A DNA stretch of 64,000 nucleotides from Rhabdothermincola salaria (GTDB lineage: Bacteria > Actinomycetota > Acidimicrobiia > Acidimicrobiales > Acidimicrobilacustridaceae), in the NCBI RefSeq assembly GCF_021246445.1, contig NZ_JAJQXW010000001.1, positions 930,001 through 994,000 on the forward strand, read 5' to 3'. The first letter of the stretch is position 1. Each line of letters opens with the position of its first letter. The notes beneath the pieces are model-generated. The model had not been told where the DNA came from. It did not search any database and saw only the letters and a program-made list of their open reading frames with translations. Both the position numbers and the translations under genes were made by a program. Shown piece after piece: positions 42,951-46,862 of the stretch.

Positions 42951-43264
42951 GGCGACCACGACATCCTCCACGACAGATCGTCATCCGACCGCTCCCAGCG
43001 TGCTCGCTCGGCATCGACCTGTCCACGACCAGCGTCGGGGATCGGCCCGCTCGACTCTCACCCGGCCCCCTCGTCGCCGCTTTCCGGCGACCTCGGAGCC
43101 CAGCGACCGCCCGCCGGGGCGGGCGCCGTTCGAGCCGATCTGGCAAAGGAGATGACCCAGGACCCTGGTGAGGACGGGTGCCGGGATCGACAGTCGAAGT
43201 AGGCGACCGGCCCTTCCGCCGTCCGAGCGGGCGGCGCTGGTCGACGCAGTGTCGGAGGTGCATC

Positions 43265-44044
43265 ATGCGCGCCCGCCCATCCGCCCGGGGTTCCCTGACC
43301 GAGCGTCAGGCAAGGGGTGGCGGCGCACCCTCGGCGGTTCGCTCCCACCGCTGGCGCCGACCCGGGCTGTTCGCCCTGCTCGTGCTCTCGCTCCTCGTTG
43401 TCGCCTCGTGCGACCCCAACCCCTACCAGGGGTCGCCGGACGGCCCCCAGCTGACCATCGTCGGCGACAGCCTCGTCTGTGACATCGAACGCCAGGCCAA
43501 CGACCGCTTCCTCTACGAGGGCTGGCACGTGTCGGTCACCGCGCTCGGCGGGTACACGGTGCAGGACCACGAGGGCACGATCCGCAAGGTCGCGGCCACG
43601 AACCCACAGGTCGTGGTGATTGCGCTGGGCGCCAACGACATCCGCGAGATCAGCGAGGGGCTGCAGACCTACGACGAGTACCGCCGCGACGTGCGCGTGA
43701 CCCTCGACATCCTGCGCAACGTGCCGTTCCTCGTCTGGGTGGGTGTGACCACCACCAACGGCTACTGGGGGCCCGACGGGGACCACCGGGTCGTAGGACC
43801 GTGGATCAACCTCATCACCGTGGTCGAGCTGGCCGCATCCGGGCGGGTCCCGGGTACGACGCTCTACGCCGACTGGGCCAGCGAGTCGGCTGGACGGATG
43901 GACTACTTCGTCGCTCCGGGGAACGTGCACCACTCGGCGCTGGGCTGCGCGGCCTACCTCGACCTCATCGATCGTGCGGCCGCCTCGTTCCCGGGAAGCC
44001 CCATACAGCGGCCGCTGGACTCGGTGAGCGTCGGCCCTGGTTGA
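43265..44044 (+). CDS. SGNH/GDSL-type hydrolase lipoprotein, truncated by nonsense stop
   Basis: A 259-residue predicted lipoprotein. The N-terminal helix (RPGLFALLVLSLLVVASC) ends in a lipobox Cys. IVGDSLVCDIERQAN carries the block I Ser, ALGANDIRE the block III Asn-Asp pair, and VAPGNVHHSALGC the Asp/His-type C-terminal block. It probably hydrolyses esters, such as cell-wall or lipid acyl groups. The frame runs into a TGA at 44042-44044, after which the same frame continues into a recognisable C-terminal domain, so the protein is shorter than the apparent ancestor. Confidence 0.82.
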   Translation: MRARPSARGSLTERQARGGGAPSAVRSHRWRRPGLFALLVLSLLVVASCDPNPYQGSPDGPQLTIVGDSLVCDIERQANDRFLYEGWHVSVTALGGYTVQDHEGTIRKVAATNPQVVVIALGANDIREISEGLQTYDEYRRDVRVTLDILRNVPFLVWVGVTTTNGYWGPDGDHRVVGPWINLITVVELAASGRVPGTTLYADWASESAGRMDYFVAPGNVHHSALGCAAYLDLIDRAAASFPGSPIQRPLDSVSVGPG

Positions 44045-44320
44045 GCGCGGATCGTCGGGTGGGCGGCCGACCCCGACAGCACGACGACCGACATCCACCT
44101 CTACGTCGACAACCGTTGGGGCGGAGCGTTCACCGCCGACCGCCATCGCCCCGACGTGGCGCTCGCCCTCCCCCAGTTCGGGGCGTACCGGGGCTTCGAC
44201 GTGACCTTCCCGGTGTCGTCGGGACCGCACACGATCTGCGTGTAGGCCATCGACCAGGGCCCCGATGCGCCGAACCTGCTGGTGGCGTGCCGTGAGACCT
44301 GGGTGTCATCGGCTGGCTGA
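44045..44320 (+). pseudogene. Detached C-terminal domain of the SGNH lipoprotein
   Basis: In frame with the preceding gene, this stretch encodes RIVGWAADPDSTTTDIHLYV and GAYRGFDVTFPVSSGPHTIC, a domain that recurs at the ends of secreted actinobacterial proteins (GWA.DPD ... H.Y.D ... GFD ... HTVCVYA). Two stop codons interrupt it: TGA at 44042-44044, where Gly would be expected (GGA to TGA), and TAG at 44243-44245, where Tyr would be expected (TAC to TAG). The final stop is 44318-44320. Confidence 0.78.
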
Positions 44321-44535: not shown

Positions 44536-46371
44536 TCACCGGTGCGCCGCCGACGTGGCGACGCTCCCGTCGTGGCCGCCGAGGAGTTCGCTGTCTCGAC
44601 GTTTGGACAGGCCTGCGTCATCGGTGAGGTAGGTCGTGGTGGAGGGGAAGGCGAATCCGCTGCCGGCGGCTTCGATGATCTCGTGGATCAGCAACAGCAG
44701 CTCCTGCTGCACTTCGGTGAACACGCTGTACCTGTCGGTGCCGATGTGGGCGCGGACTTCGATGTCGATCGACGACGCCCCGAACCCGCAGACGCGCACC
44801 CGTGGGAAGTCCGTCTTGTCGAGCACCATGGGGTGAGATCGGAATCGGGCATCGATCGCGCTGACGATCGTCCGCAGTTGGTCGACCGTGGTTTCGTATC
44901 GCACACCTACCGTGTGGACGAAGAGGATGTGGTTACGCTCGCTGTAGTTGGTCACCTTGGCCCGACTGAGGTCGGCGTTCGGCAAGGTCACCTGGGTGTC
45001 ATCCAACCGTCGAATCCGCGTCGATCGTGGGCCGATCGCCTCGACGGTGCCGAACTCGTCGTCGACTCGAATGTCGTCGTGGACCCGGAACGGCTTGTCC
45101 AGATACACGGTGATGCCGCCGAGCAGATTCTCGAGTGTGCTCGTCGCCGCGAGTCCCACGGCGAGGCCGGCGACGCCGGCGCCAACCCCCAGCCCGATGG
45201 TTGGGACCCCGACGCGGGACAAGCCCATGAGTGCGAGAGAGAACGCGCCACCGAGACTGACCACCTTGGCGAGGAGGCGCAACAGGTGTGCGTCGATGCT
45301 CTCGTCGCGGATCGCCGGCGTGGCGATGATCCATTCGACGGCGAGCTTGGTGACGACCCAGAACGCCCAAGCCATCGACGCCCAGATCACCAACGTCACG
45401 AGGACATTGGCGATGGTTGCGGCGTTGCCGCTGTGGTTGACCTGCTCGTCCATGAATCGCCGAGCGACCCCGATCAGGATGAGCAGTAGGACCGGCGTCG
45501 TCAGCTGGTGCACGTACCCGCTGAGTGTGCCTGGTGTGCCCCGGCTCCCGACCCACCGCTGCCAGAGCCCGATGGTCACTACGACCAAGCCGAGGACGAC
45601 CACGTCGACGATCAACTTCCACAGCGGCGAGCCGAGAAAGTCGCGGTCGAACCCATCCGGGAGAGAATCGACGAGGGAGCGCGGTACGAGATGGCCTGTG
45701 AAATTGGCCTCCTCCTGAACCCAGTTGCGGACCTCCACCTCCTCGTTGGGCGGGAGACCGTCGACGTCCTTGCGCCAACCGGGGAGCCGGGAGACGGTCT
45801 CTGCGGAGAAGACGTAGTCGTCGGCGCGCGCTCCCTCGTCGACGCGCGTGATCTTGATCTCCGTCCCCGGCAGCGTGTAGCCCGTGATTCCACCGCCGGT
45901 GAAGAGGAACGGAGCGTCGGTTTCGGGGAACGTGAACTCTTCGGTTGCCCGAGCGGCAGCCTCGACCTCTGCGGCGTCGGGGATCTCGTCGACAGCCGGT
46001 GGCGGGATGCGGTTCAGGATGTCAGCCAGGCTGGTGAAGGAGACCACGATCGCCTCGCCCTGATTCGCTTCGGACACCTCGGAGAAGTCGAACAGCTGCT
46101 CGGTCCTCTCCAGCGCCGAGTCGAACGCCGCTTGGTTTGCTTCGGAGCGGTCCTGCTCGTACGTGAGCAGGAGTTCTTCGAGGAGTTCGACCTGTGCCAC
46201 GAACGACAGATAAGTGGCCTGCGGGCTTGACGTGTCCAGCGGCTCCAGCGGGTTCTCCTGCGCGTGCGCGGGAGACGGGCCGAGCAGGACTGCGGCGATC
46301 ACGGCCAGCGCCGCCACGATCGTCACCCGGCGTGCCGAACCCACCGGCCCCATGATCTGCCGTCGAGTCAT
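44536..46371 (-). CDS. Large MscS-family channel with secreted N-terminal domain
   Basis: A 611-residue protein. A signal peptide (RRVTIVAALAVIAAVLLGPS, PAHAQ) leads into an extracytoplasmic domain of about 200 residues, then four to five transmembrane helices and the MscS core (GLGVGAGVAGLAVGLAATST, LENLLGGITVYLDKPFRVHD). The ATG at 46371 is chosen because it fits the signal peptide; ATG 46437 is an alternative. GC content looks lower and codon choice less biased than its neighbours. A possible late acquisition beside tRNA-Pro. Confidence 0.85.
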   Translation of the reverse strand: MTRRQIMGPVGSARRVTIVAALAVIAAVLLGPSPAHAQENPLEPLDTSSPQATYLSFVAQVELLEELLLTYEQDRSEANQAAFDSALERTEQLFDFSEVSEANQGEAIVVSFTSLADILNRIPPPAVDEIPDAAEVEAAARATEEFTFPETDAPFLFTGGGITGYTLPGTEIKITRVDEGARADDYVFSAETVSRLPGWRKDVDGLPPNEEVEVRNWVQEEANFTGHLVPRSLVDSLPDGFDRDFLGSPLWKLIVDVVVLGLVVVTIGLWQRWVGSRGTPGTLSGYVHQLTTPVLLLILIGVARRFMDEQVNHSGNAATIANVLVTLVIWASMAWAFWVVTKLAVEWIIATPAIRDESIDAHLLRLLAKVVSLGGAFSLALMGLSRVGVPTIGLGVGAGVAGLAVGLAATSTLENLLGGITVYLDKPFRVHDDIRVDDEFGTVEAIGPRSTRIRRLDDTQVTLPNADLSRAKVTNYSERNHILFVHTVGVRYETTVDQLRTIVSAIDARFRSHPMVLDKTDFPRVRVCGFGASSIDIEVRAHIGTDRYSVFTEVQQELLLLIHEIIEAAGSGFAFPSTTTYLTDDAGLSKRRDSELLGGHDGSVATSAAHR

Positions 46372-46784
46372 CGGCGAAGCCGCGCCGAACTGATCGGTCT
46401 CGAGGCGTTCCTGACCACGAAGGAGATTGTGACTCATGGGAGCCGTGGCGCCGAAACCCGGCTTCGCCGACGAGGAGCAACGACGGGCGAGCGAATCGCC
46501 GAGCTGAACAGCGAGGTCGACCAGCTCCCCCGTCTGCTCATCTCGAACCGAGCGGTTCATGACCTGCACCTCGAGACCGTGTGCCCACGGCAGTGCGAGA
46601 CCGTCGACGTCTCCGTCGACGACGAGGTTGGATCGATCAGTCCCCGCAGCGTGCTCGAGCTGACGCATGCCCAGCGACACCGGCGGGACAAGGGGCTCAC
46701 AGGACGGTGTCGACAGACCGTTGACATCGGGCTGTTTCGGGGGCCGAGGCCGCCGCCCCTGCGGGCGGCTGACCTGCGGAATGT
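46372..46784. other. 413-bp gap between the MscS gene and tRNA-Pro
   Basis: No gene I can support. An open frame on the minus strand runs on from mscS through this gap and even into the tRNA, but shows no family match and is probably accidental. A hairpin at 46752-46769 is listed separately. The remainder holds the likely promoter of the channel gene. Confidence 0.55.
46752..46769 (-). terminator. Hairpin downstream of tRNA-Pro
   Basis: Seven-base perfect stem (GCCGCCC, 4-nt loop, GGGCGGC) located 16 bases past the tRNA 3' end in the direction of tRNA transcription. Likely the tRNA transcript terminator. Confidence 0.55.
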
Positions 46785-46862
46785 TGGTCGGGCTGGCGGG
46801 ATTCGAACCCACGACCTTCGGTCCCCCAGACCGACGCGCTAACCAAGCTGCGCCACAGCCCG
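46785..46862 (-). tRNA. tRNA-Pro (anticodon GGG)
   Basis: A full cloverleaf on the minus strand, 78 nt including an encoded CCA. The acceptor stem is CGGGCTG paired with CAGCCCG; the anticodon loop reads CTGGGGG, giving anticodon GGG, which reads CCC/CCU proline codons. The T loop GTTCGAATC is present. It is transcribed toward the large MscS gene and lies 13 bp from the end of the monooxygenase gene. Confidence 0.96.

Follow-up and report, generated by a model that had tools for sequence, protein, structure and literature searches.

A GDSL esterase-like lipoprotein gene of Rhabdothermincola salaria with two in-frame stop codons in its C-terminal secreted module

The window analysed here, a 64,000-nucleotide stretch of the Rhabdothermincola salaria genome, carries on its plus strand a reading frame that opens with an ATG at 43265, five bases downstream of a Shine-Dalgarno-like GGAGGT recognised by sequence reading (43254 to 43259), and that meets three stop codons in the same phase. 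An initial 259 codons (43265 to 44041) lead to a TGA at 44042 to 44044, a further 66 open codons to a TAG at 44243 to 44245, and another 24 codons to a final TGA at 44318 to 44320. The earlier note on this DNA had described a frame that continues past the first TGA and through the TAG without any indel, and reading the frame bears this out, one uninterrupted phase running from 43265 to 44320. The first part is predicted to encode a 259 aa SGNH/GDSL_2 lipoprotein, on the basis of a PF13472 match, alignments and an AF2 model; the stretch from 44009 to 44317, within which the first two stops both lie, is a C-terminal secreted module identified by homology and by a family profile. The third stop falls at the expected end of this module, the other copies of which likewise end just past ..GCR(TV). 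Third-position GC content (GC3) is 0.90 ahead of the first stop, 0.94 after the first and 0.83 after the second, and falls only past the third stop, to 0.65. Scans for promoters and terminators at the esterase locus found nothing.

The locus is flanked by an acyl-CoA dehydrogenase-like and an MscS-like gene. Neither has a strong match in the same-genus genome; across the family, the former matches one member and the latter none, the MscS-like searches having been run without a positive control. The 758-codon frame at 44536-46812 overlaps at its 5' end with a tRNA-Pro (ggg) on the minus strand (46785-46862), so that the start of the MscS-like gene most likely lies further downstream.

The GDSL part begins with an N-terminal signal peptide bearing the lipobox VASC, with Cys49 as its cysteine, and matches PF13472 (Lipase_GDSL_2) with E=2.7e-8 and 34.9 bits, above the curated cut-off of 32.9. 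Ser69 of the GDS motif, Gly95/96, Asn124 and His222 are all present and are invariant in an alignment with the two nearest homologues. An AF2 model of this part, of modest pLDDT (64), matches SGNH hydrolases in the PDB, both SGNH esterases and peptidoglycan O-acetyltransferase/esterase domains. Judged from sequence and predicted fold, membership of the SGNH/GDSL fold family appears to be retained, a statement that we do not extend to catalytic activity.

The block V Asp is absent, the only acidic residue of the motif being replaced by Asn220 (PGNVH); the two nearest homologues carry Asp at this place (PGDVH), and more distant homologues carry it one residue earlier. Asn220 is not proof of catalytic death, because a Streptomyces SGNH lipase (S. 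rimosus) is active with Asn at block V (PMC10779480) and Ser-His dyads are known (PMC9487903). In addition, Phe155 and Phe242 occupy positions that hold Cys in the other six homologues inspected, so that a pair of cysteines is missing here, one preceding the VVW strand and the other at the C-terminal end. These three residue differences suggest that constraint on the GDSL part has weakened, without proving inactivity, and with a lost Cys pair and an Asn in place of the local Asp this part may itself be eroding, while it still looks translatable. Faster evolution of the GDSL part than in the paralogue was not found (17 unique changes here against 28 in the paralogue, p = 0.14).

The stretch beyond the first TGA corresponds to a single secreted module, ~95 residues long, whose signature is GW..DPD..RPDV..HGF..C..C. 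It is one of 31 matches in its own genome (best E among the 30 others, 5e-17) and scores mid-family against a profile of the module (110 bits, rank 45 of 124), so the resemblance is not due to chance, and the claim that a recognisable secreted-protein domain lies downstream of the stop holds. The window copy retains GW, DPD, RPD, GF and both Cys. It keeps 20 of 29 conserved columns, a ratio of 0.69 that is identical to that of the module in the intact paralogue, and four of 121 copies retain fewer; it has thus diverged no further than its counterpart there. What sets it apart is the stops, since it alone among the 31 own-genome matches is interrupted, and none of the ~80 matches listed from ten genomes of a phylum sample contains one. 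The two stops occupy unlike columns. That of the TAG is Tyr or Phe in most copies (Tyr in 25 of the 30 others in this genome), whereas that of the TGA is variable (S, G, T, A, Q, R, K, Y and others) and is filled by GGA in no own-genome copy. The suggestion that each stop is one substitution away from its expected codon is therefore borne out for TAC but not for GGA.

In this genome the module is hosted by unrelated secreted enzymes, in which it stands C-terminally or internally and usually as an array of two to five copies; these proteins bear subtilase, GH43, GH25, or VanY plus polysaccharide deacetylase domains. Ten of 296 sampled phylum genomes are positive for the profile at E <= 1e-12, and searches of Pfam and NCBIfam found no model for the module. 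Similarity to a solved amidase domain (8c4d) reaches only E = 0.05 to 0.19, covers part of the amidase and remains a lead rather than a kinship. Elsewhere in the genome (C1:1488450-1493795), GH43 and subtilase genes adjoin, and their C-terminal module arrays are identical or nearly so, which suggests recent duplication or gene conversion. This uncatalogued family, with some 30 own-genome copies on secreted enzymes, is the more useful by-product of the analysis and merits curation.

Two homologues of comparable closeness were found. An intact paralogue in the same genome (C1:641795-642721; 49-55% identity) has both the GDSL domain and the module, free of stops; close by, a short repeat that in one frame reads VAPSPRRP occurs many times in tandem. 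The other (VERC01000212.1, genome G036, the Acidimicrobiia MAG ZLKRG30; 49-50% identity) ends right after the GDSL domain, and G036 was the only one of 60 genomes compared to yield a homologue of that closeness. At 1e-20 the 397 genomes searched within the order yielded no orthologue, and 395 genomes of the class at 1e-15 gave only the paralogue and distant copies from G003. Nor was any orthologue found that shares the stops: among genome contigs a protein query had no match and an alignment query recovered only the G036 contig, and a search of viral contigs for homologues had no match. As to whether relatives lack the downstream domain, the answer is mixed, the G036 homologue being module-free and the own-genome paralogue retaining the module. 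Because both states occur, the module is an optional part, and its loss would be unremarkable; the G036 homologue likewise indicates that a module-free protein exists naturally.

We consider it likely that nonsense mutations truncated a divergent SGNH/GDSL esterase-like paralogue and thereby removed its accessory C-terminal module. Loss of the C-terminal domain had been one of the options raised at the outset, and the in-frame stops, the intact paralogue, the module-free homologue and the changed residues of the GDSL part all speak for it. The gene, for a secreted esterase-like lipoprotein, is a divergent paralogue of the intact gene elsewhere in the genome; translation would now end at the TGA at 44042, giving a lipoprotein without the accessory module, and the remaining module frame, second stop included, would be an untranslated remnant. 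The stops would be recent enough for no frameshift to have built up. That translation terminates at these stops and that function is being lost from the gene are both inferences. What is left of the esterase may be a viable enzyme that does without the module, in the manner of the G036 homologue, or may mark the onset of decay of the whole gene. Against truncation, there is little sign of relaxed constraint beyond the stops and the three residues. If only a few substitutions have accumulated since constraint was lost, a pair of nonsense changes is improbable (P about 0.03 for 10 substitutions and 0.2 for 30), so that error or selection for truncation retains some probability.

Such an error, also among the options raised at the outset, would be a miscalled base or consensus at both codons, the true gene being an intact two-domain lipoprotein. 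The retention of the module's hallmark residues and of coding bias, as in an intact gene, and the single substitution that separates the TAG from the usual Tyr codon are what this reading would predict. It needs, however, two substitution errors that arose independently and each created a stop, within a single 1.05-kb frame in which only 2.8% of possible single substitutions would do so. The assembly also consists of only 7 contigs, with 97.8% completeness. A coding-bias scan of the 64 kb turned up seven other same-frame stops, of which the four examined look like ordinary boundaries between neighbouring genes; with those four of seven candidates examined, no other convincing broken gene was found in the window. 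Moreover, stop errors would not account for the differences in the GDSL part at residues conserved elsewhere, and we regard an error at both codons as unlikely.

A different kind of alternative leaves the sequence as it is and changes its decoding. Ribosomes might pass both TGA and TAG with low frequency, so that a short esterase is accompanied by a rare, module-bearing long form, as in the option of two isoforms raised at the outset. The preservation of the frame and of the module's hallmarks past both stops would fit this, as would a survey in which many bacterial in-frame stops have dN/dS below 1 (PMC7918605), but by the account of that survey such stops tend to be short-lived, on a scale comparable to that of polymorphism. 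With two different stops one after the other, two low rates would be multiplied, and the long form would be very rare. The 45 tRNA genes read include no anticodon for TAG, and TGA is read only by tRNA-Sec, which rules out suppressor tRNAs; shuffled sequences fold as well as the stretch that follows the TGA (z = 0.70); and the stops are shared with no relative, the sole close outside homologue found being itself without the module. Readthrough thus has no positive support, with no suppressor tRNA, no fold and a TAG as second barrier, and we hold it to be quite improbable. We give a similarly slim chance, a shade lower, to a leaky double gate in which the product is mostly a module-free lipoprotein with a rare long form and selection has kept the downstream frame. 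Insertion of selenocysteine at the TGA draws on a tRNA-Sec gene at C2:662646-662737 (70.6 bits, anticodon tca), but there is no Cys among the common residues of the TGA column, no stable hairpin was found after the TGA, and the TAG would be left unexplained; we consider it exceedingly improbable. Apart from this locus, the tRNA-Sec gene indicates that the lineage probably makes selenoproteins.

Truncation by nonsense mutation thus remains our preferred reading, and ordinary gene erosion, rather than a new decoding trick, is the most likely explanation of the locus. As such it illustrates modular erosion, in which an optional secreted module would be lost by nonsense mutation with the enzyme frame still open; its importance would rise only if readthrough were shown.

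Several known systems are instructive by comparison. The stops lie within a conserved bacterial reading frame, as in the cases of suggested readthrough reported by Belinky et al. 2021 (PMC7918605); in that study constraint around in-frame stops was judged from orthologous stops, whereas here there is no stop-sharing orthologue and two different stops stand in series. The gene resembles SGNH/GDSL hydrolases (PF13472) in its GDS Ser, Gly, GxND Asn, block V His and predicted fold, and departs from them in carrying Asn220 at the acidic position of block V and Phe at two otherwise conserved Cys positions. With nonsense-truncated genes and recent pseudogenes it shares in-frame stops without a frameshift, downstream homology that has been kept, and an intact paralogue elsewhere. 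Unlike these, its first 259 codons form an uninterrupted, apparently translatable enzyme, and so the case may be one of domain loss rather than of full gene loss.
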